Shown: positions 2,221-19,882 of the stretch, one piece after another
How positions within the stretch are numbered: position 1 is the stretch's first letter
Layout of the letters: the number at the start of each line of letters is the position of its first letter
IMG/VR virus record: IMGVR_UViG_3300025127_000354
Coordinates: 1-20,867 of that record
Strand: one strand, 5' to 3'
DNA from: a virus
Length of the DNA: 20,867 bases
Made by a program: the position numbers and the translations under genes
Notes under the pieces: model-generated
Told to the model about the DNA's origin: nothing
Database searches by the model: none
The model's input: the letters and a program-made list of their open reading frames with translations, nothing else

Positions 2221-2355
2221 TTCAAGTCCTTCAAGTCCTTCATCTTTTTTGTTGACGGAGTTGACGGAGTTGATTGTCCAAATTAATCCAACTTTGTATA
2301 AAAATTTCAAGTCCGCCAAGTGCGCCAAAAAAATATATTGGCGGTGTTGGCGTAG
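2221..2355 (-). repeat. 9-nt-period repeats forming two nested imperfect hairpins
   Basis: On the plus strand TTCAAGTCC occurs at 2221-2229, 2230-2238 and 2306-2314. GTTGACGGA occurs at 2251-2259 and 2260-2268. TTGGCGGTG and TTGGCGTAG lie at 2338-2346 and 2347-2355. All units are 9 nt and start with TTG/TTC or are preceded by G. One hairpin has arms CGCCAA-GTG-CGCCAA (2314-2328) and TTGGCG-GTG-TTGGCG (2338-2352) around a 9-nt A/T loop. The two-copy blocks at 2221-2244 and 2251-2273 can also pair with each other with roughly two mismatches per nine bases. The block lies between the capsid gene and the 100-aa gene. Confidence 0.75.
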
Positions 2356-2366
2356 TTGAAAAGGGG

Positions 2367-2438
2367 TGAGGGGTTGGTCGAGGTAGATTCTTCCTTGGTA
2401 GTTTTATCATAACTATGGAGAAATAAACCAACCCCTCA
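2367..2438. repeat. 12-bp perfect inverted repeat downstream of the capsid gene
   Basis: TGAGGGGTTGGT at 2367-2378 is the exact reverse complement of ACCAACCCCTCA at 2427-2438, with 48 nt between the arms. In the transcribed (minus) direction the first arm starts nine bases after the capsid stop codon at 2447-2449. There is no T-run after the second arm, so it is not a standard rho-independent terminator. It may stabilise or expose the 3' end of the capsid message. The segment between the arms shows no convincing gene. Confidence 0.7.
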
Positions 2439-2446
2439 GAGGTTAA

Positions 2447-3403
2447 TTACGATAAGTCAGCAACTATCCCGTGAGCACCTTCATTAAGTACCGCAAGGGT
2501 GCATTCGGTTACAAGCTGTTGCTTGGCGGCCTGATCGCCCGCCGTGGCCAAATCCGATGTTTCGAAGGGTCGCAAATAAGCAACTTCTGCGAATTCGGGG
2601 TCTAGCACTAGCGCGACATCATCTGCGGAATTCGCGGATAACATGAATCTATTCGGAACAACGGAAATTGTGCCGAAATCACTCATGTAAATATCTGCCG
2701 CTCCAACAATGGTAGTCGGTTGATCTGCTGGCGCCATATAACGTTGAGCCGCGATGCCTGAGAAAGCGCTCACAGTTTGTTTATGCGCGGGTGTAACCAT
2801 AAGAATTGATGGGTCACCACCTGATTCATAAACTTCTTTCACAACGGTTTTTAGCATGTCCTCTGTAAATGTTCTTTCAGCTTCTGAACTGTCTGTTCTT
2901 GCTGTTGAACCTAAAGAACCCGCTACACCTGCAGAACCAAAGTCCCCGTTTGTGTTTAACCACGTTTGCAAGCCACCCATAGTTCTCGCTTCAGCTGCTG
3001 AACCTGCGTCTTTTATCTGATTAGATAGAAGAATCGCTTCTAGGTCACGCTTAATTTCTTTTGAAGCTTTGGCAAGTTGGTACGCTTGTTCACTTTTACG
3101 CCCCGCTTTATCAATCGCTTCAAGTGTCTTTGAAACAGAAATTGTTTTCTGCAAAATCTGACATTGATTGTTTAGTCGTGTTGTCGCTGATAAAGTAGCC
3201 GTTGAAGCATCTGCTCCCTCAATTGCCGCATTACTTACATTTACGCTAGCCAACGCATCGGTTTGCCACTCATGTAAAGTATTACTACTACTGGACTGAC
3301 CTATACTGTTCATAAAGGGCGTATCGGTTGGCGAAATTGAGTAGATAACATCTTGCAAATCTTCTCTCGCACCAACAGCCGCATGATTACTAAATACTGC
3401 CAT
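2447..3403 (-). CDS. Major capsid protein (SU10/DUF5309-type, HK97 fold)
   Basis: A 318-aa protein beginning MAVFSNHAAVGAREDLQDVI. The N-terminal pattern 'REDLxDxIYxIxPTDTPFxxxIG' is the hallmark of the DUF5309/SU10-like major capsid family. That family builds the icosahedral shell with an HK97-type fold. Further family-like pieces are 'HEWQTDAL', 'NQCQILQKTISVS' and 'ASKEIKRDLEAILL' in the first 140 residues. 'SILMVTPAHKQTVSAF' lies at about 199-215, and a late beta segment 'DFGTISVVPNRF' follows. The length is normal for the family, so a separate decoration or protease domain is unlikely. The start has a GAGGAG site. The gene follows the scaffold directly, as expected. A repeat-rich non-coding stretch follows it. 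Confidence 0.9.
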   Translation of the reverse strand: MAVFSNHAAVGAREDLQDVIYSISPTDTPFMNSIGQSSSSNTLHEWQTDALASVNVSNAAIEGADASTATLSATTRLNNQCQILQKTISVSKTLEAIDKAGRKSEQAYQLAKASKEIKRDLEAILLSNQIKDAGSAAEARTMGGLQTWLNTNGDFGSAGVAGSLGSTARTDSSEAERTFTEDMLKTVVKEVYESGGDPSILMVTPAHKQTVSAFSGIAAQRYMAPADQPTTIVGAADIYMSDFGTISVVPNRFMLSANSADDVALVLDPEFAEVAYLRPFETSDLATAGDQAAKQQLVTECTLAVLNEGAHGIVADLS

Positions 3404-5378: not shown

Positions 5379-7358
5379 TTACGCCCTCATTTGTTCCATA
5401 CGGAGTTTTTCACGTTCCAGTTCCATTTCCTGAATCATCTCTTCTTTCTTCAACTGTATTTCAGCAACCATTTTGTCACGTTTCAGAGCGAGTTCCGCTT
5501 CTGCTTTTTGTCGATCTAATGCGATCTGAGCTTGAGCTTGTTGTATTGCGGCTGAAACCATTGGATTCATTGGTTGTTCTTTTTGTTGATTCATTTGAGA
5601 TAACATCGCATCCATTTCAGGTGTAATTTCTCTAAAGAACGCTTTCGTGTCTTTGAATCCCGCTGATTCGATGAACTTACCCAACGTTTCCCGATACTGT
5701 CCAACACTCACTAATGGATTAGTTGGCCCAAACATCTTTAAAATCTCTTCTTGTTTCGACATTATCATTTGTAGTAATGACATTTGTTGTTTTTGATCTC
5801 CAGTACCTAAACCAACATTGATTGATATATCGTACTGATTTGACCATTGACGGGGGTCAATTTGGATATACTTACCCCTCATCCGTATCATTTGTGGTTT
5901 ATTCGAATACTTCGATGCAAGTTGTAAAATTCCTTTGAATAAACTTTTAATTCCAGTTTCCGCGAACACTCTAGCTATTAATTCAATCTTACCAGTTGCG
6001 GCATTTGTAGAAGCGGCAATAGCCGCGGCTGTGACATTCTGTAAAACATCTGGCGCCAAGCCTTGCATAGCATCGCTTATTCCTGTCCTTTTTCCTTGGA
6101 CGACATCTAAATACTCCAACATAGGGAACGCTTGTTGAGCAACTAACGGTACTGTCATTGGGACAATCGCGTTTGGATTTTTTAATCTGACTACTCCTCC
6201 CGCAGTTACATTTAACAAATCATCCAGATTCACTTGTCCTTCAACCGCTCCAACACGAGGAGCAAGGGACAAATAGAGTGAATCAAGAATCGCTCTGGTG
6301 ATCGCTGTCTTTTGTTCCTGTAAATCCATTGAACGATCTGCGAGAGATTGTCCAAAGAACTTATGTGGTAAAGGATATGGACAAATACTATGAAACGGTA
6401 TGTAGTCAATATCTTCATTACTTAGAATGTCATTACCCGCATAAACTACTCTTCGTAATTCCGCAACACCGTCTTCGTTGAAGTCAGTTCGAATATAACA
6501 TTCATAGATTTCAATTTCCTGCATACTAAAATCCATACTTTCCATGTCGTACGGTTGTTCACCCTCTGAGTATCTCGCGACTCTTTCCGGTGCGTATGCT
6601 AGTTCATCGTAAGCGGGTAACCCATCTACAAGTTCAGGGTCAAATCCCATCGCTTTTAAATCTGTTCTCGTAAGTAATTTCCTATGAGCAACAAACGGAC
6701 TATCTTCGATTGTTTTTGCTTTTTTACTGATTAAAAATTCTTCTGGCGGTAATGACTCAACAACGATTTTCCCTACTTCGTTTTTCTTTCTTACTTCAAG
6801 ATTAAACTTTCTTTCAACGGTTACTTCTGGATTATCTGTACTTACTTCCGTTTCGGTGATTTCTTCCTGACTGATTATCTCTCTCGTACCATCTGCGATA
6901 ATCGCTGTCACTTCTATTTCTGTCAGATTTTCATATGTTTCCGTTATTAAATCAATTTTCTCATCATAATATGCTTTGAAGATACCTACTTTCTGCAACA
7001 ACGCAGTCTTCATAGTTTCATGTAAGATATCAAATCCATCATTCTCAACATAGAAAACCCAGTTACAGTATTCCGTAGCTTGTTTCGCGGATTCTACACC
7101 TTGAGGAGTTTTCGCTTCAAATTTAACAGCTTGTTCACTCGATGCGAATATTCTCATCAAATGTGGCAAAGCTCCGTCAACAGCTTCCGCGACTTCTCCA
7201 GTTACAATTGTTGAACGACCCTCAACTTCTGTTCCGTAGGGTCTTCGCATATATGAGTCAAGCGACTTCCTTCTTTCCGTTGTCGTTTCTGACTCTATGT
7301 AACCGATGCTCGCGTCTATTTCTGCCCTTAGCACCGCTTTCAGTTTGTGTTGTTCCAT
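5379..7358 (-). CDS. Portal protein (P22-like, long form)
   Basis: A 659-aa protein; portals of P22/SU10-like phages are of this large size. The N-terminal part has RRKSLDSYMRRPYGTE and RSTIVTGEVAEAVDGALPHL (split over residues 29-68), the usual 'S.vvs..v.d.ve...p.l...f' pattern of this family. 'CPYPLPHKFFGQSLADRSMDL' around residues 328-348 also matches. TGISDAMQGLAPDVLQN near 433-449 is the conserved wing/stem segment. The final 60 residues are Ala/Glu/Lys/Gln/Met-rich and should form the long helical barrel of the portal dodecamer. The ATG at 7358 has a GGAG about ten bases upstream and lies inside a small overlapping ORF. The portal is the entry and exit ring for DNA and the docking site for terminase and adaptor. 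Confidence 0.9.
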   Translation of the reverse strand: MEQHKLKAVLRAEIDASIGYIESETTTERRKSLDSYMRRPYGTEVEGRSTIVTGEVAEAVDGALPHLMRIFASSEQAVKFEAKTPQGVESAKQATEYCNWVFYVENDGFDILHETMKTALLQKVGIFKAYYDEKIDLITETYENLTEIEVTAIIADGTREIISQEEITETEVSTDNPEVTVERKFNLEVRKKNEVGKIVVESLPPEEFLISKKAKTIEDSPFVAHRKLLTRTDLKAMGFDPELVDGLPAYDELAYAPERVARYSEGEQPYDMESMDFSMQEIEIYECYIRTDFNEDGVAELRRVVYAGNDILSNEDIDYIPFHSICPYPLPHKFFGQSLADRSMDLQEQKTAITRAILDSLYLSLAPRVGAVEGQVNLDDLLNVTAGGVVRLKNPNAIVPMTVPLVAQQAFPMLEYLDVVQGKRTGISDAMQGLAPDVLQNVTAAAIAASTNAATGKIELIARVFAETGIKSLFKGILQLASKYSNKPQMIRMRGKYIQIDPRQWSNQYDISINVGLGTGDQKQQMSLLQMIMSKQEEILKMFGPTNPLVSVGQYRETLGKFIESAGFKDTKAFFREITPEMDAMLSQMNQQKEQPMNPMVSAAIQQAQAQIALDRQKAEAELALKRDKMVAEIQLKKEEMIQEMELEREKLRMEQMRA

Positions 7359-15001: not shown

Positions 15002-15225
15002 TTTTGAATATAAGAATCTATAATTACTCTTTTGTTGACTTCAATCATCTCTAGTATTTGAGCACGATTATTGTCTTTTGTCTTCATCTTATATTGTCCG
15101 TTTTTATCAACATAAAATAATATGAATTGATGATTCAAATTTATATCCGGTACGATCTGCGCAACTGATGGTTCATTCACGTTCATTGGTGTGATTGTAA
15201 ATTCTTTCGGTTGTTCAAATTCCAT
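14998..15225 (-). CDS. Small hypothetical protein (75 aa)
   Basis: Coupled on both sides: its ATG lies 11 bases inside the Q-like gene and its stop overlaps the next ATG. The N-terminus is Pro/Asn/Val-rich (MEFEQPKEFTITPMNVNEPS). The second half has a beta hairpin (HQFILFYVDKNGQYKMKT) and a helix (NRAQILEMIEVNKRVI). No family was recognised. Confidence 0.55.
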   Translation of the reverse strand: MEFEQPKEFTITPMNVNEPSVAQIVPDINLNHQFILFYVDKNGQYKMKTKDNNRAQILEMIEVNKRVIIDSYIQK

Positions 15226-15580
15226 TATTAATACCCTTTTTGATTAATTGTTTTGCTAAATACAACGTTTTATCGAAAGTATATTTATCCATTTTAAGTT
15301 TTTGAGCAACTTGTGATTTACTCAAATACGGATATTTTATATATAAACTTACGACAATTGTCTTATATTTTTGGGGTAAACCGCAAACAATTTTTTCAAT
15401 TAGTTCACCTTGTTCTTTATCAAAGTAAACTTCTTCTTTTTTTTCTTCTTCAAATACCTCACCCGCTTCGGGAATGTATCTGTGTTCAATTGATCTACAA
15501 GTCGAATCCGGTGTAGGGCCTGCAATTGGCAAACTCCTCAGATACAAAATCCAGTTTTGCAAATAGTCATCAACGTTCAT
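15215..15580 (-). CDS. Antiterminator Q-like / sigma-70 region 4-like HTH protein (121 aa)
   Basis: The N-terminal part, DYLQNWILYLRSLPIAGPTP then DSTCRSIEHRYIPEAGE (residues 5-41), has the 'W..~LR..p..GP.p.StcrSiE.rY' pattern. I associate this with phage Q-type regulators in lambdoid late regions. Residues about 58-113 are a four-helix, sigma-region-4-like HTH: IEKIVCGLPQKYKTIVVSLY, then SKSQVAQKLKMDKYTFDKTL. Its place after NinB and YbcO-like genes is the place of gene Q in lambda. It would then act on late transcription. An alternative is a stand-alone sigma-like factor. The YbcO stop overlaps its ATG (TAATG). Confidence 0.65.
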   Translation of the reverse strand: MNVDDYLQNWILYLRSLPIAGPTPDSTCRSIEHRYIPEAGEVFEEEKKEEVYFDKEQGELIEKIVCGLPQKYKTIVVSLYIKYPYLSKSQVAQKLKMDKYTFDKTLYLAKQLIKKGINNGI

Positions 15581-15888
15581 TAATATAGACTAGGTTCTTT
15601 TACCTCAAGTCTTCCGGTTGAAAACAACCATCCAATTGTATTCCTATGCGCTTCTTCCCACAACTCTTTCTTCTCTTCTTTGGATAATTTTGCAGATGTA
15701 TCAATTTTTGTATGACATTCAAAACAGCAATATGCGATTCGAAAATCATGACTCTTTATAGATTTGCCTTTTCCATCTCTTAATTGATTACTATGAGCAG
15801 AAACAATCGTTCCGTCATTGGTTTTTCCGCAACAGAAACAATAAGGTGCATCTTTTGCAAATTTCAACAATTTTTTATTTCGATACAT
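15580..15888 (-). CDS. YbcO/DUF1364-like zinc-binding HNH-type nuclease (102 aa)
   Basis: Starting at the ATG at 15888 the product reads MYRNKKLLKFAKDAPYCFCC; an ATG at 15936 would overlap NinB more. The zinc-binding pairs are C17xxC20 and C55xxC58H. Between them is VSAHSNQLRDGKGKSIKSHD (residues 29-48), the family pattern 'AHsnq...GKG.giKahD'. This matches YbcO-type (DUF1364) proteins found in lambdoid nin regions and described as putative HNH-fold endonucleases. H32 and H59 are candidate catalytic or metal residues. It overlaps the NinB gene end by 14 bases and is coupled to the Q-like gene. Length and motifs are complete. Confidence 0.82.
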   Translation of the reverse strand: MYRNKKLLKFAKDAPYCFCCGKTNDGTIVSAHSNQLRDGKGKSIKSHDFRIAYCCFECHTKIDTSAKLSKEEKKELWEEAHRNTIGWLFSTGRLEVKEPSLY

Positions 15889-16276
15889 CGTGTGGTACTT
15901 CTGCAAATAAGTCAGATATTTCAACACCATTTTCAACAGCGAAATTCCTCACTTCTTCTATCAAATGAGAAAACTCTGACTTGTTTAATTTTGTTGTAGA
16001 TTTGAAAAACATTATCTCAGATGAGTCCGGTAATTTTTCGACTTTACTTGGAACAAACAATCTTTTGAACTGTTCATGCCAAACTTCTGGTACATACTTA
16101 ACATCTCTTGGAAATACTGATTCTGATATTCTACTCAATAATAACCAGTAAAACTTGTTTTGTTCTTTTGTTCTATTTCGTGGTTCTATCTTACAGACAT
16201 AATTTTCTGGACAGTTTTTAATGTTCAGAATCGCTTTTTCTTTTCCTTCTTTAGTGTCGAGTAGAAAATATTCCAT
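15875..16276 (-). CDS. ninB: NinB / lambda Orf-like recombination mediator
   Basis: From the ATG at 16276 (133 aa; preceded by AAAGGGGG), the protein begins MEYFLLDTKEGKEKAILNIK. The NinB pattern is present: RNRTKEQNKFYWLLLSRISE (about residues 33-52), where R-x-x-x-Q-N-x-x-x-W is typical, then VPEVWHEQFKRLFVP (about 62-76). It closes with SSEIMFFKSTTKLNKSEFSH followed by LIEEVRNFAVENGVE. In lambda this protein (Orf) binds SSB and single-strand DNA and can replace RecFOR in Red recombination. A Red-like exo/annealing pair lies on the other strand at 18601-19882. An upstream ATG two codons earlier is possible. Confidence 0.85.
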   Translation of the reverse strand: MEYFLLDTKEGKEKAILNIKNCPENYVCKIEPRNRTKEQNKFYWLLLSRISESVFPRDVKYVPEVWHEQFKRLFVPSKVEKLPDSSEIMFFKSTTKLNKSEFSHLIEEVRNFAVENGVEISDLFAEVPHDVSK

Positions 16277-16739
16277 TCTCATCCCCCTTTATTTGACCAA
16301 ATTTATTTTTCGCTTCTCTCATAACTCTTTTTTTAAAGTTTGGAAAAGGTTCTTCATCTTCTACAAAATAAATTCCTAGACTCTTACCCATCTCTATAAT
16401 TCCGGTCGATGAATTAAACCACAAATCTTTCTCTTCCGGTTCTGGAATATAATGTTCATCTTCCCAACGGTGTCCATTTAACCATGTACTAAGATGACAC
16501 AGAAAAGACAGTTTTGTTTTATCAAGGTCACCGTCCTCATTAAGAAATCCCCTAGATTTATATTCACCATTTTTCCACTTCACATAAATCTCTGTGATTG
16601 TTTTATTTTGTAAATCTGCAAACTTCTTTAAGTATTTATAGTTTGAATATTTTAGGAACGCTTTTCTTGCTTGTTGTTTACCTTTTTTCAAATCAACTAC
16701 TTTCCACAAATCTTCAAATTCATCTTCTTTGTTGCTCAT
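16251..16739 (-). CDS. Phage replication-type protein, C-terminal-domain-only form (162 aa)
   Basis: The protein starts MSNKEDEFEDLWKVVDLKKG and has the 'F..fW......k.k..A...f.k' beginning. It also has FLCHLSTWLNGHRWEDE (residues about 78-95), matching the 'a.~tWLn..rWed' end of phage replication initiation or helicase-loader adaptor proteins (O/YdaU/Gp37 C-terminal type). No N-terminal HTH domain is fused here, so only the partner-binding half appears to be present. The acidic tail EDEEPFPNFKKRVMREAKNK is helical. The position just before ninB copies lambda O/P-nin order. Loading of a helicase is inferred. The start overlaps the upstream small ORF's stop (ATGA), and the ribosome-binding site GAGGAG precedes it. 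Confidence 0.6.
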   Translation of the reverse strand: MSNKEDEFEDLWKVVDLKKGKQQARKAFLKYSNYKYLKKFADLQNKTITEIYVKWKNGEYKSRGFLNEDGDLDKTKLSFLCHLSTWLNGHRWEDEHYIPEPEEKDLWFNSSTGIIEMGKSLGIYFVEDEEPFPNFKKRVMREAKNKFGQIKGDENGIFSTRH

Positions 16740-16882
16740 TTTTTTATCTCCTCAAGACGCAAAAAGACCATTAGTATTTTATCAAGTGGTGTATTGGGTA
16801 ACATCCCTCTAGTTGTTGGCTTGACTCCAATTGAACTGGCTATAACAAATGTCTTCTCTCGCTCTTTGGCTACTTTCTCCAA
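16736..16882 (-). CDS. Small ORF with uncertain start (48 aa from TTG; open from 16936)
   Basis: On the minus strand a frame is open from 16936 to a TGA at 16736 that overlaps the next ATG (ATGA). The translation looks coding: LGGLEALEKVAKEREKTFVI, then ASSIGVKPTTRGMLPNTPLD and KILMVFLRLEEIKK. But no ATG or GTG lies near the front. The only usable in-frame start is TTG at 16882, with GGTGGG about eight bases upstream. Coding-like residues (CKRYIKEL) continue before it, so a rarer start near 16936 or a lost ATG is possible. The function is unknown. Confidence 0.5.
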   Translation of the reverse strand: MEKVAKEREKTFVIASSIGVKPTTRGMLPNTPLDKILMVFLRLEEIKK

Positions 16883-16929
16883 AGCCTCTAGCCCACCTAG
16901 TTCTTTTATATACCGCTTACATTTCGCGG

Positions 16930-17235
16930 TTAAAATTCAAATTCTTCGCACCTCCATTTGTTTTTCTGTTTGTACCACCCTTCAACAACCACTCTCCATT
17001 TACTCTCCAACATTCGGGATAATGCTTCAGAGTCTTCTATTTTTTTTATACGACTCGTCATATTCCCCTTTGAAGTAGTTTGAATTGCGACTGTCTCCCC
17101 ATTACCTATTGCCAATATATCAATACATCCAAACAGATCATGTCTTGTTTTAGTGAACGCATTGTACTTCTCAACATTCGCGGTTATATACCCTTCGTCA
17201 CGCCATTTATGTTGAGTTCTTAAACTAAGATTCAT
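16930..17235 (-). CDS. PD-(D/E)XK-like (VRR/resolvase-type) nuclease-fold protein (101 aa)
   Basis: The ATG at 17235 is chosen because it lies close to the stop of the HTH gene (11-base overlap); an ATG at 17289 would overlap it by 65 bases. The core is RHDLFGCIDILAIGNGETVA (residues 31-50), IQTTSKGNMTSRIKKIED (51-68), followed by WRVVVEGWYKQKNKWRCEEF. The strand-turn-strand 'FGxxDILAI....VAIQTTSKGN' with D39 and Q52 fits the PD-(D/E)XK fold, with Gln in the E position as in several phage members. Weak SD; coupling to the HTH gene is likely. A nuclease that acts on recombination intermediates is plausible but not shown. Confidence 0.6.
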   Translation of the reverse strand: MNLSLRTQHKWRDEGYITANVEKYNAFTKTRHDLFGCIDILAIGNGETVAIQTTSKGNMTSRIKKIEDSEALSRMLESKWRVVVEGWYKQKNKWRCEEFEF

Positions 17236-17488
17236 ACTTTGTCCGTGAGTCCCCTTGTTGATCTTCGTATTGTTTCCAATTTTCATCAAAGATTATAGGA
17301 TTCAATTTGTCAAAATCCAACCCCGTAGCGACCCTCATTTTTGGACAATGTTGGGAAGGTATAACACCACCACCACTCTTAAACCACTTAGACACGGTAG
17401 ATCGAGACACATCACATATATCCGCGATCTCAGTCATACTTAATCCAAAAGTCATGATTACATCTTTACTGGACATTATTTTATTCAT
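17225..17488 (-). CDS. Cro/YdaS-like HTH regulator (87 aa)
   Basis: The ATG at 17488 has AAGGA at about -8. Residues about 14-50 are a helix-turn-helix: FGLSMTEIADICDVSRSTVS, then KWFKSGGGVIPSQHCPKMRV. The 'lsmteiAdicdvsrStVSkW...g.gvip.~~c~~m..atg' pattern is that of Cro-like or YdaS-like DNA-binding proteins of phage immunity regions. It is encoded divergently from the Red-like operon, so it is the likely repressor or Cro of that operon. The C-terminus (NPIIFDENWKQYEDQQG) is acidic. A TATAAT lies on the minus strand about 40 bases upstream, without a good -35. Autoregulation is inferred. Confidence 0.78.
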   Translation of the reverse strand: MNKIMSSKDVIMTFGLSMTEIADICDVSRSTVSKWFKSGGGVIPSQHCPKMRVATGLDFDKLNPIIFDENWKQYEDQQGDSRTKYES

Positions 17489-17503
17489 ATTTGTTTCCTT
17501 GGG

Positions 17504-17532
17504 TTGACATTGTATTATTCATCAATTATAGT
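17504..17532 (+). promoter_or_regulatory. Strong sigma70-type promoter for the 17569 operon
   Basis: TTGACA at 17504-17509, a 17-nt spacer and TATAGT at 17527-17532. This is the same arrangement as at 13837-13865. On the opposite strand a TATAAT (17530-17525) overlaps the same bases, so it shares sequence with a possible promoter for the HTH gene. Confidence 0.85.
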
Positions 17533-17535
17533 GTC

Positions 17536-17547
17536 TTTAACGTTAAA
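17536..17547. promoter_or_regulatory. 12-bp perfect palindrome TTTAACGTTAAA (candidate operator)
   Basis: The palindrome lies four bases after the -10 of the 17504-17532 promoter, across the expected transcription start. A repressor bound there would block the rightward operon. The HTH protein encoded next door (17225-17488) is the natural candidate. Confidence 0.6.
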
Positions 17548-17568
17548 AATAAACCTTTGGAGAAAAAT

Positions 17569-18141
17569 ATGTTACAAACTAGTCAAAATGTTGCAGTAAA
17601 TAAGACCAATCCTATTAATAATCAAATTGATTTCAAATCAACTCCCATCAATATCGTTTACGGACATTTATACGCTTTAGGTCATATCCACGATCTCCGA
17701 ACAATCTTGGGATATACCAAAGAAGATTTGAAGTCATCCCCTTACTCAAGTGAAGATTTTAGTATCATGCCTTCTGAGTGGATAAAACTTGTTGAAATTC
17801 TTCTTGTTTTCCACGTTAATAACAAACTAAATCTTTTTTGTAACCACGCGAAAAAAAGAATCATTCGAAACGCTTTATTCAACTTTTGTGGTGTCGCGAG
17901 TCGTGGTTTTGGAAGTGACTTACCTTGTACCATGATCGTAACAAAAGCGTATGAGATCGTTTCAAGACTCAAATTTAAAAATCGTTCTCGTATCAGACAT
18001 GGTGAATTGACTCGTCAAGTTACGAACAAACTTTTGAACTCTAGTTTAAAAACCAAAGAACAATCTTCTGTTTTACATAATCTTTTAAGTTTGGAAATTA
18101 GTGGGTGTTTTTCAAACATCATATGTGAAGACGTTTTATAA
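17569..18141 (+). CDS. Hypothetical protein, first gene of the Red-like operon (190 aa)
   Basis: The ATG at 17569 has TTTGGAGA at the right distance. Upstream in-frame ATGs would start before the promoter's transcription start and are rejected. The product MLQTSQNVAVNKTNPINNQI is followed by a mainly helical body. HIHDLRTILGYTKEDLKSSP and SEWIKLVEILLVFHVNNKLN lie around residues 39-94. A basic segment KAYEIVSRLKFKNRSRIRHG and a Ser/Leu-rich end close the protein. There are no metal or nucleotide motifs. As the first gene of an early operon it may be regulatory or anti-host. No family was recognised. Confidence 0.6.
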   Translation: MLQTSQNVAVNKTNPINNQIDFKSTPINIVYGHLYALGHIHDLRTILGYTKEDLKSSPYSSEDFSIMPSEWIKLVEILLVFHVNNKLNLFCNHAKKRIIRNALFNFCGVASRGFGSDLPCTMIVTKAYEIVSRLKFKNRSRIRHGELTRQVTNKLLNSSLKTKEQSSVLHNLLSLEISGCFSNIICEDVL

Positions 18142-18145
18142 CCAC

Positions 18146-18170
18146 GGGGGGTTTACTCCCCCCTCACTTT
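18146..18170 (+). terminator. G6/C6 hairpin and T-run before the 18183 gene
   Basis: GGGGGG (18146-18151), loop TTTACT and CCCCCC (18158-18163) form a perfect six-pair stem. TCACTTTTT follows, then GGAGATAAC and the ATG at 18183. The interrupted T-run suggests partial termination, or a stability element that separates expression of the first gene from the rest of the operon. Confidence 0.7.
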
Positions 18171-18182
18171 TTGGAGATAACA

Positions 18183-18590
18183 ATGGCGACTAAAAGAAAA
18201 AAAACAATCGAAACTGAACAACATGAGATGGAAACATGGACAAAGAGAATGAATGATGTTGAGGGACGGGAAGGGTTTCCTGAGTGGGGTGCTAATCCTA
18301 TTACGGATGACCCAACTTGTAAATTTGTTCTCACATTTTGGGGTAGTATGTTTACCCCTCGATTCAATAGACCAGTTGACTTATATATGATGTTTGATCG
18401 GGAAACAAAACGACCAATGTTTATAACAGTCGCAGGAAACTCTAGTTGTGATATTCGTACTATTGAATCATCAAATGAAGTAAAAAGCGTTTCTGCTCAA
18501 GAGATAGAAATGTTTGAAACATTAGGAAAAGCAATGGACTTACTCGACATGATGCTTGTAAGTTATTATGCGAAACCAATAACTGATTAA
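18183..18590 (+). CDS. Hypothetical protein (135 aa)
   Basis: The ATG at 18183 follows GGAG by seven bases. The N-terminus (MATKRKKTIETEQHEMETWT) is charged and probably flexible. The middle, DPTCKFVLTFWGSMFTPRFN and RPVDLYMMFDRETKRPMFIT, looks like beta strands of a small barrel. The end, QEIEMFETLGKAMDLLDMML, is a helix. It is encoded before the annealing protein gene, so an accessory role in recombination is possible. No family was recognised. Confidence 0.58.
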   Translation: MATKRKKTIETEQHEMETWTKRMNDVEGREGFPEWGANPITDDPTCKFVLTFWGSMFTPRFNRPVDLYMMFDRETKRPMFITVAGNSSCDIRTIESSNEVKSVSAQEIEMFETLGKAMDLLDMMLVSYYAKPITD

Positions 18591-18600
18591 AGGAATACAA

Positions 18601-19158
18601 ATGGTCTACTTTTACAAACTTGGAGAAATATTTGGAACACTTTCCCAATTACCTTATAAAGAGCATGTAATGGAGAAAGGTTCATTTAGAGGGGGTCAAG
18701 GTGCGCAATATATACCTTGGGCAAAAGCAGTTAAAGCTGTTATGAAAGTATATCCCGAAACAACGTTTTCTTTCAAAGACGTTAGAAGATGTGATAATGA
18801 TACCGTCATGGTAAAAACAGAAGTTACCATCGGGGAGACTTTACCGGATGGAGTATTTCAGGGGATTACTCGTCAACAAGAACTTCCGGTTCAAGATCAC
18901 AAATTTAGAGCGATTCCTAATCCTACTGCGAACGAACTCAATAAAGCTTTTCAAAGATGTTTAGTAAAGAATTTAGCTATATTTGGTTACGCTATTGATC
19001 TGTACGGGGGAGAAGACCCTTACGATGAAACTGTAAGTTTTGATGATGTTGCAAATAAAACATCTAAAGGAAGTGCAAAAACACCAGACAAAGTTGAAAA
19101 TTATCTCCAAAATATTAAAAAAACAAACGAAAAATTTAAAGGGGATAGTGATGACTAA
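18601..19158 (+). CDS. Single-strand annealing protein (DUF1071/Sak3-like)
   Basis: A 185-aa protein with the DUF1071/Sak3-type pattern. QYIPWAKAVKAVMKVYPETT (residues 36-55) has W40 after the Ile-Pro pair. QELPVQDHKFRAIPNPTANE (93-112) contains the 'lPVmd....ai.nP' block. LNKAFQRCLVKNLAIFGYAI and DLYGGED (113-139) give the 'in.a.qRclvKa.A..Glgl.~y.GED' end. These proteins coat and anneal complementary single strands in Red-type recombination. The C-terminus (residues about 150-185) is Lys/Asp-rich and flexible. The next gene is a lambda-type exonuclease, overlapping by eight bases, the usual partner arrangement. The ATG has AAAGGA upstream. Confidence 0.82.
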   Translation: MVYFYKLGEIFGTLSQLPYKEHVMEKGSFRGGQGAQYIPWAKAVKAVMKVYPETTFSFKDVRRCDNDTVMVKTEVTIGETLPDGVFQGITRQQELPVQDHKFRAIPNPTANELNKAFQRCLVKNLAIFGYAIDLYGGEDPYDETVSFDDVANKTSKGSAKTPDKVENYLQNIKKTNEKFKGDSDD

Positions 19159-19882
19159 ACAAACGTATGAAGTTGTTTCACCTGATCAAAACTCTCATGA
19201 ATGGTTATTTGAAAGACTTGGAACAATTACTGCGACCGATGTTGCGGTAATGTTTCAGAAACCACGAATTAAGTCAGAAGAGTTTTCAAAAACTCAAATT
19301 GATTTCATCAATCAAAAAGCGGTAGAAAGAGTTCTCAAAACGCGAGGAATCGAAGCGTTGACTGATTACTTTAATGCTGAATCTGCTAAGTTTGAAAACA
19401 ATGAAGACATTCAACGCGGTAAAGATCATGAAAAATACGCTGTAATGGCTTATGAAAACTTTACTAAAAATATTATTGACGTTGTTGGATTTTGTCGTTC
19501 AGTTGAAAGACCATATTTCGGATGTTCACCGGATGGTTTAATCATTGAATCTGGCGCAGTCATTGAAGTGAAGTGTCCCAGAGTGTACAACCATTACTAC
19601 ACCGTGAAAAATAAATTTGTAAGGGACATATATAAATATCAAATGATGGCTCAACAACTTGTTTTAAACGCTCCATATGTTCATTTTATAAGTTTTTGCG
19701 CAGAAGCGTTAGATGGTCATGAACTGTTTTTGATGGAGTTTCAATTTACCGATGATGATTTAAATAGTGTTGTTGAAAAAGTTGAATACTATAACACCTT
19801 AATTGAACTTGAGTTTCAAAAATTAAAAAACCTTACTCCACAAGATTTAGGGAAGGTTGAAGTTTTACGGGGTGATAGGTGA
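19151..19882 (+). CDS. Lambda-type exonuclease (YqaJ/Exo family)
   Basis: The ATG at 19151 gives 243 aa; an earlier frame start would lie inside the annealing protein gene. The family motifs are in order. RLGTITATDVAVMF (residues 22-35) matches the 'R.GriTaS..a.~~' N-terminal block. GKDHEKYAVMAYE (90-102) carries E94. PYFGCSPDGLIIESG (121-135) carries D128, and AVIEVKCP (136-143) carries E139 and K141. This is the metal-binding set of lambda Exo-like PD-(D/E)XK nucleases, which degrade 5' strands to give substrates for the annealing protein. 'KYQMMAQQLVLNA' (about 163-175) fits the 'yy.QvQ..l..tg' strand. All catalytic residues are present. It ends in an overlap with the next gene. Confidence 0.9.
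   Translation: MTKQTYEVVSPDQNSHEWLFERLGTITATDVAVMFQKPRIKSEEFSKTQIDFINQKAVERVLKTRGIEALTDYFNAESAKFENNEDIQRGKDHEKYAVMAYENFTKNIIDVVGFCRSVERPYFGCSPDGLIIESGAVIEVKCPRVYNHYYTVKNKFVRDIYKYQMMAQQLVLNAPYVHFISFCAEALDGHELFLMEFQFTDDDLNSVVEKVEYYNTLIELEFQKLKNLTPQDLGKVEVLRGDR

Follow-up and report, generated by a model that had tools for sequence, protein, structure and literature searches.

A nine-base-period palindromic repeat block beside the capsid gene of a marine phage

Introduction

The described systems closest to the sequences considered here are short palindromic repeats of bacteria. REPs are palindromes of 20–40 bp in which one end bears GTAG or CGTC as a tag (PMC3733652). Together with REPINs (PMC3116915), and with RAYT transposases (PMC3733652), they form a system of short, intergenic, dispersed palindromes that are thought to be non-autonomous. 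Prokaryotic MITEs are small insertions, non-autonomous and bounded by terminal inverted repeats (PMC10969869). In Haemophilus, uptake-signal-sequence (USS) terminators consist of a 9-nt USS in inverted pairs (PMC5217627).

A repeat block beside the capsid gene of a marine phage, containing two hairpins that we call H2 and H3, resembles each of these systems in part. Unlike REPs, its arms are tandem 9-nt units and have no terminal tag: GTAG is found, on the plus strand, only in the H2 spacer (within TTGGCGTAGTTG), and CGTC is confined to the H3 units. Of the window proteins that were scanned, which come from a fragmentary record with no assigned host, none was recognised as a RAYT. The phage copy also differs from MITEs in that neither transposase-related ends nor a target duplication was seen in it. 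The USS terminators share a 9-nt word, inverted pairs and the ability to form hairpins, but have one unit per arm rather than a tandem, and their sequence is unrelated. Bacterial repeats of the CGCCAAGNN, CACGAAGNN and CACAGAGNN flavours are built alike, with a 6–7 nt core and 2–3 nt spacer repeated several times, a loop, and inverted copies; they are more nearly perfect, whereas a C.C mismatch is constant in the phage units, which also have a TCAA/TTGA outer unit. The block works like a dispersed palindromic repeat that lacks the REP tag and has at most putative MITE ends.

The phage locus and its repeat units

The window, by which we mean the whole stretch of DNA analysed, is a linear virus record of 20,867 nt from a marine phage and is probably a fragment. 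The repeats occupy a 241-nt gap separating the capsid gene from the gene of the phrog_3982 family (Table 1), and H3 ends 16–17 nt ahead of the phrog_3982 ATG. Along the coding (minus) strand, 5' to 3', three hairpins follow one another in the gap: H1, H2 and H3. Elsewhere, positions 15215–19882 form a recombination/early region encoding a replication-initiation-like protein, NinB, a YbcO-like nuclease and a divergent Cro-like regulator, as well as a Sak-like annealing protein and a RecE-like exonuclease; this gene content suggests a temperate-like layout. The scanned proteins of the window include no recognisable transposase, and a DNA similarity search against annotated phages gave only chance matches of 30-odd bases. 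Assignment of a host through TerL was abandoned, the distant matches being too numerous to name one.

Table 1. Features of the window in and around the repeat block.
Feature	Position	Strand	Remarks
Late operon		−	TerS, TerL, portal, scaffold, major capsid protein, phrog_3982 gene, virion structural protein
Major capsid protein (MCP) gene, phrog_1328	2447–3403	−	Upstream neighbour of the repeat block
Hairpin H1, conventional long stem GAGGGGTTGG...CCAACCCCTC	2367–2438	−	Outside the 9-nt repeats and the interval flagged by the earlier note
Inserted block carrying H2 and H3	2212–2365, limits approximate	−	From gap-length comparison and the L001 site
Hairpin H2, TTTCAAcuaCGCCAAcacCGCCAA-loop-TTGGCGcacTTGGCGgacTTGAAA	2305–2361	−	Arms 2338–2361 and 2305–2328
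Hairpin H3, TCAACTCCGTCAACTCCGTCAA-loop-ATGAAGGACTTGAAGGACTTGA	2222–2273	−	Arms 2252–2273 and 2222–2243
TTGGCGNNG tandem	2338–2358	+	
GTTGACGGA tandem, 2.6 copies	2251–2273	+	
TTCAAGTCC tandem, 2.4 copies	2221–2242	+	Further whole copy at 2306
phrog_3982 gene, function unknown	1903–2205	−	Downstream neighbour of the repeat block

An earlier note on this DNA had named several units repeating every nine bases, and all of them are present above chance. Allowing up to 3 mismatches, the unit pattern CAASTNCKYCAASTNCKYCAA matches the window 6 times against 0.17 expected, the best matches being the four hairpin arms; TTGGCGNNNTTGGCGNNNTTG has 3 matches against 0.00. The repeats are real and beyond chance. 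Their arrangement differs in one respect from the three evenly spaced copies of TTCAAGTCC first described: two, at 2221 and 2230, are nine bases apart, but the third (2306) lies 76 nt away, inside an arm of the other hairpin. The remaining units begin at 2251 and 2260 (GTTGACGGA) and at 2338/2347 (TTGGCGGTG/TTGGCGTAG).

On the minus strand, H2 reads TTTCAA-CTA-CGCCAA-CAC-CGCCAA, a 9-nt loop, and TTGGCG-CAC-TTGGCG-GAC-TTGAAA, an architecture of the form (CGCCAANNN)2-loop-(TTGGCGNNN)2. Its stem has 6-bp helices every 9 nt with internal loops of 3x3 or smaller between them. The inner arms (2314–2328 and 2338–2352) pair at 12 of 15 positions and the full arms of 24 nt are 79% complementary. The pairing seen by the earlier note stands, although 'clean' overstates a stem interrupted by internal loops every 9 nt. 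H3 likewise has period nine and a short loop, and each of its units has a C.C mismatch. Across both hairpins the unit is of the type CAA[C/G]TNC[G/T][C/T], head-to-tail within each arm, and in both the arms consist of at least two tandem units of period 9, inverted around a short loop. The similarity between H2 and H3 is borderline (score 24, with 1 of 500 shuffles equally good). One position of the unit is C-G versus U-A between the two hairpins, and it has changed in both inner units together; this, the only kind of double change seen, is formally compensatory, but units that change in concert in this way suggest that they were copied from one another. An imperfect 9-nt terminal inverted repeat of the block (CCTTTTCAA / TTAAAAAGG, at 2356–2364 / 2212–2220) lies in an AT-rich region and could be due to chance.

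Predicted folding

Folding of 2206–2446, a check proposed in the earlier note, gave z = −6.7 for the minus strand and −7.3 for the plus strand. The repeat block alone gave z = −4.0, and H2 as single-stranded DNA gave −6.0 / −5.8. These predictions support the ability of the block to fold as structured RNA or DNA. No Rfam family matched at its gathering threshold, and a sub-threshold match to a plant-type snoRNA (31.6 bits against a cut-off of 80) was dismissed. A scan for intrinsic terminators called neither H2 nor H3. At its base H2 has UUUCAA/UUGAAA, above which lie 3x3 loops and after which comes U5; no GC-rich stem directly precedes the U-run.

A lineage-specific insertion next to a recurrent hairpin

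The distance from the MCP gene to the phrog_3982 gene was measured over 102 loci, some contigs being counted twice. It is 47–100 nt in 78 of them, including all 29 in which capsid identity is at least 63%, compared with 241 nt in the window. Gaps of 146–809 nt occur only in distant loci with 49–57% capsid identity, where the contents were covered by the hairpin scan alone. The window gap exceeds that of the closest full-length relative (L001) by ~149 nt; there the site reads 'CCAACCCCTCACC-TTTATTTTTTAAAC-ATG', and it is empty throughout L001–L020. Neither H2 nor H3 is at the orthologous site in the relatives examined, and when 602 kb around the capsid relatives were scanned for inverted pairs of 9-nt-period arms, four weak 11/15 matches appeared but nothing as good as in the window. 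Because the gap is so much longer here than in loci of at least 63% capsid identity, the block is a lineage-specific insertion of ~150 nt. No target-site duplication is evident against the empty site of L001, a divergent site that makes for a weak comparison, and no donor was found.

The same relatives bear on whether the repeats encode an N-terminal extension of the phrog_3982 protein, as had been suggested from the open minus-strand frame. That frame is indeed open across H3 (NSVNSVNKKDEGLEGLE), from 2328, though a second is open as well (ORF 2240–2431, minus strand), and in one related phage (L353) an H3-type arm is the start of a downstream reading frame, so that another gene begins inside it. 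For phrog_3982 the suggestion fails: its relatives start at the equivalent ATG without repeats, the family profile match begins at residue 5 of the short form, and the only start codon listed upstream in the open frame is TTG. We consider a coding role extremely unlikely.

The structure that does recur beside the capsid gene is H1. In the capsid relatives that were folded (L001 to L020), the capsid stop is followed by a stem of ~8 pairs or more, whose sequence differs lineage by lineage and which often has a T-rich tail; in two more distant loci (L014 and L019) the structure amounts to a plain intrinsic terminator. In L001–L013 and at 2367–2438 of the window, the outer stems are strongly diverged yet complementary, and the apical segment is often TCTCCATA; hairpins of the H1 type are terminator-like in many relatives, perhaps with a conserved apical motif. 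H1 behaves like a conserved post-capsid terminator, and it, not H2 or H3, is the recurrent structure linked to the capsid gene. An mRNA stabiliser after the capsid gene, as the earlier note had envisaged within the repeats, is not supported. Of its broader proposal of a structured RNA element, the ability to fold holds and conservation does not, H2 and H3 being missing at the site in relatives.

Copies at other sites in phages

A hairpin homologous to H3 is found in two other contigs (L141 and L153) of the same phage family, in which portal, TerL and TerS match those of the window (TerL at 74% identity). This hairpin, AATCAACTCCGTCAACTCCGTCAATAAAAAAAAGTGAAGGACATGACGGACTTGAA, aligns with H3 over ~60 nt with a score of 90, compared with a best of 30 in 500 shuffles; the left arm AATCAACTCCGTCAACTCCGTCAA is identical over 24 nt, and the loop and right arm are also shared. 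It lies at a non-orthologous site between ORFs of 96 and 81 aa, 5' of the unrelated 81-aa gene and far from the capsid gene, and its flanks differ from those of H3 in the window. In each of the two places a start codon follows closely on the 3' side of the hairpin, whose orientation is unchanged. L354 provides a third site for this family, at 6346–6394, with an intergenic 9-nt-period hairpin of another flavour. Adjoining it, at 6308–6345, is a terminator-like hairpin AATGAGAAATAAGGGGTGAGGGTTATTTCTCATT, whose loop GGGGTGAGGG resembles the GGGGTGAGGGG beside H2 in the window.

Orthologues of the L141 copy allow its drift to be followed, in a comparison that rests on two distinct haplotypes. In L146, L154 and L353, two substitutions turn GGACTTG of the right arm into AGACTTC. 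With no change in the left arm, each of them breaks a pair, and the predicted DNA fold weakens from −11.0 to −4.7 kcal/mol. The earlier note had proposed a search for co-variation of the arms in relatives, and had named a lack of compensatory change beforehand as counting against its proposal; this orthologous pair has two pair-breaking changes and no compensatory one. In this small sample, the H3 copies appear to decay without compensation, with no sign of selection for pairing. In L348 (640–720), a single deletion that starts inside the first H3-type unit removes most of both the element and the 81-aa gene, leaving the junction CAACT/AAACT.

These observations can be set against a functional RNA, in which H2 and H3 would act as a second terminator or processing barrier for capsid mRNA, or as a leader hairpin controlling downstream translation. 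Folding better than shuffles on both strands, the TTTTT after H2 on the minus strand, and the shared position and orientation of H3 and the L141 copy relative to a start codon are all consistent with such a role. Against it stand the lack of H2 and H3 at the site in all relatives, the broken pairs in the orthologous H3 copies, the lack of an Rfam match at gathering threshold, and bacterial copies that, by crude ORF calling, have no preference for gene ends. A role as functional RNA is unlikely.

At non-orthologous sites, H3 itself recurs, whereas for H2 only the architecture does. The two-arm pattern of H2 was found in 14 loci of viral contigs, mostly coding, and two of these look intergenic (L202 and L207). 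Both have a CCAAG-type 9-nt-period palindrome, at 2808–2874 of L202 in a gap before a presumed tape measure gene, and at 2430–2560 of L207 upstream of a presumed terminase small subunit gene. A further viral contig (L121, 1825–1899) has ~11 tandem CGCCAAGTG units, as in the plus-strand arm of H2. Other searches of viral contigs were less informative: among the matches listed for the arm pattern CAASTNCGYCAASTNCGYCAA, most are coding sequence; the perfect CGTCAA version has none; and the sole extra match to the CAACTTGG flavour, in L482, is coding.

Nine-base-period palindromes in bacteria

The H2 architecture, searched as CGCCAANNNCGCCAAN{3,25}TTGGCGNNNTTGGCG, matched at least 120 bacterial genome stretches. 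Among the matches listed, and with groups as named in the records, the phyla are Myxococcota, Chloroflexota, Planctomycetota, Verrucomicrobiota/Lentisphaerota, Acidobacteriota and Pseudomonadota. Some genomes have many copies, with 101 in Sorangium cellulosum So ce26, 58 in a Chloroflexi MAG, 26 in a deltaproteobacterial MAG and 22 in the uncultured-bacterium MAG ERR599081_bin.20. The reversed-pattern control gave 0 copies in 10 of 10 genomes and a period-10 analogue gave 0 in 11; these genomes were chosen through the period-9 pattern, so that the counts demonstrate that copies keep the period, not how frequent the class is. Wider sampling of Chloroflexota met the pattern in 2 of 51, one being the genome used as centre. 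Other flavours of period 9 were met unsought (CACAGAGGG, TGAGTTNNN, ACACAGATT and CACGAAGGA). No paper in the open-access literature searched was found to print such sequences as bacterial repeats or to describe a 9-nt-period palindrome.

In the bacterial units the hexamer is constant and the spacer varies. Pairing of spacers is more frequent than in shuffles, an excess inflated by related copies, and far from universal. A terminator role for the class was considered and rejected: copies lie between tandem genes in 28 cases, divergent in 13, convergent in 9 and inside an ORF in 20, and these crude ORF calls reveal no bias to convergent gene ends. There is a likeness to MITEs on this bacterial side, where some 9-nt-period cores sit in longer repeats with inverted ends of their own. 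At several loci of Chloroflexi Dive96_bin10.46 (L219, L254, L258 and others), often at contig ends, the core is within a repeated unit of ~145 nt that ends in GGCTGTTCAGTTCT / AGAACTGAACAGCC; this is a MITE-like family.

H2 fits the CGCCAA/TTGGCG hexamer pattern of the bacterial copies. The H3 flavour was found in none of 143 Gammaproteobacteria or ~299 Pseudomonadota genomes, and the link between phage and bacteria therefore consists of the architecture and the H2 hexamers, not of end-to-end homology.

Arms with unequal numbers of units occur in 48 of 125 bacterial copies, and unequal tandem numbers of this kind suggest slippage. The phage block might accordingly have been made in place, with local replication slippage and template switching yielding tandem and inverted 9-nt units in the absence of any mobile element; H2 and H3 do resemble variants of one unit. 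This origin is weakened by the nearly identical H3 at a different site in related phages, the L141 copy, and by the dispersal of the architecture in other genomes too, and we judge it distinctly unlikely. A constant hexamer with a variable spacer in each unit, along with several sites in the phage family, would also suit a DNA recognition site at which the units bind a protein (iteron-like, or for a recombinase or packaging protein) and the inverted layout allows symmetric loading. The repeats are, however, absent from almost all family members, and thus not needed for replication or packaging, and a cognate protein was not found; a recognition site is very improbable.

Probable origin and spread of the block

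The block is probably two related copies of a small, dispersed, non-autonomous palindromic repeat, inserted after the capsid terminator. Its look of a wandering repeat comes from its absence at the site in relatives, the presence of one of its hairpins elsewhere in related phages, and the similar multi-copy hairpins of bacteria. Such a repeat may spread as a non-autonomous passenger, its arms being built by copying of the 9-nt unit rather than by pair-by-pair upkeep, and new copies would persist in intergenic slots. Candidate movers are the phage's own Sak-like annealing protein and RecE-like exonuclease, which could act through annealing of short sequences. Once inserted, the block would be transcribed in the phrog_3982 leader, just after the H1 of the capsid transcript, and would fold into a pair of hairpins that have little selected function, if any. 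Several observations weigh against spread as a passenger. Neither a target-site duplication nor a donor was found, the H3 flavour was not met in the bacteria searched, and the H2–H3 similarity is borderline. The start codon close by H3, at each of its sites and in matching orientation, could mean function, and the C.C mismatch of the phage units is atypical of bacterial copies. Readings of the block as a conserved riboregulator or as coding sequence are disfavoured.

A broader and more tentative idea, which we regard as possible but doubtful, is that the phage and bacterial 9-nt-period palindromes form one undescribed class, in which dedicated copying adds 9-nt steps to both arms and phages carry the repeats between genomes.

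Implications

An odd patch in one phage has become an entry point to period-9 palindromes that come in several flavours and recur both in bacterial phyla that are unrelated and within one marine phage family, where several sites carry them. The findings caution against annotating blocks of this kind as phage riboregulators. If one mechanism makes period-9 palindromes, it would add a new route by which repeats are built and spread, and the phage sites with empty relatives are tractable for dating and following insertions.
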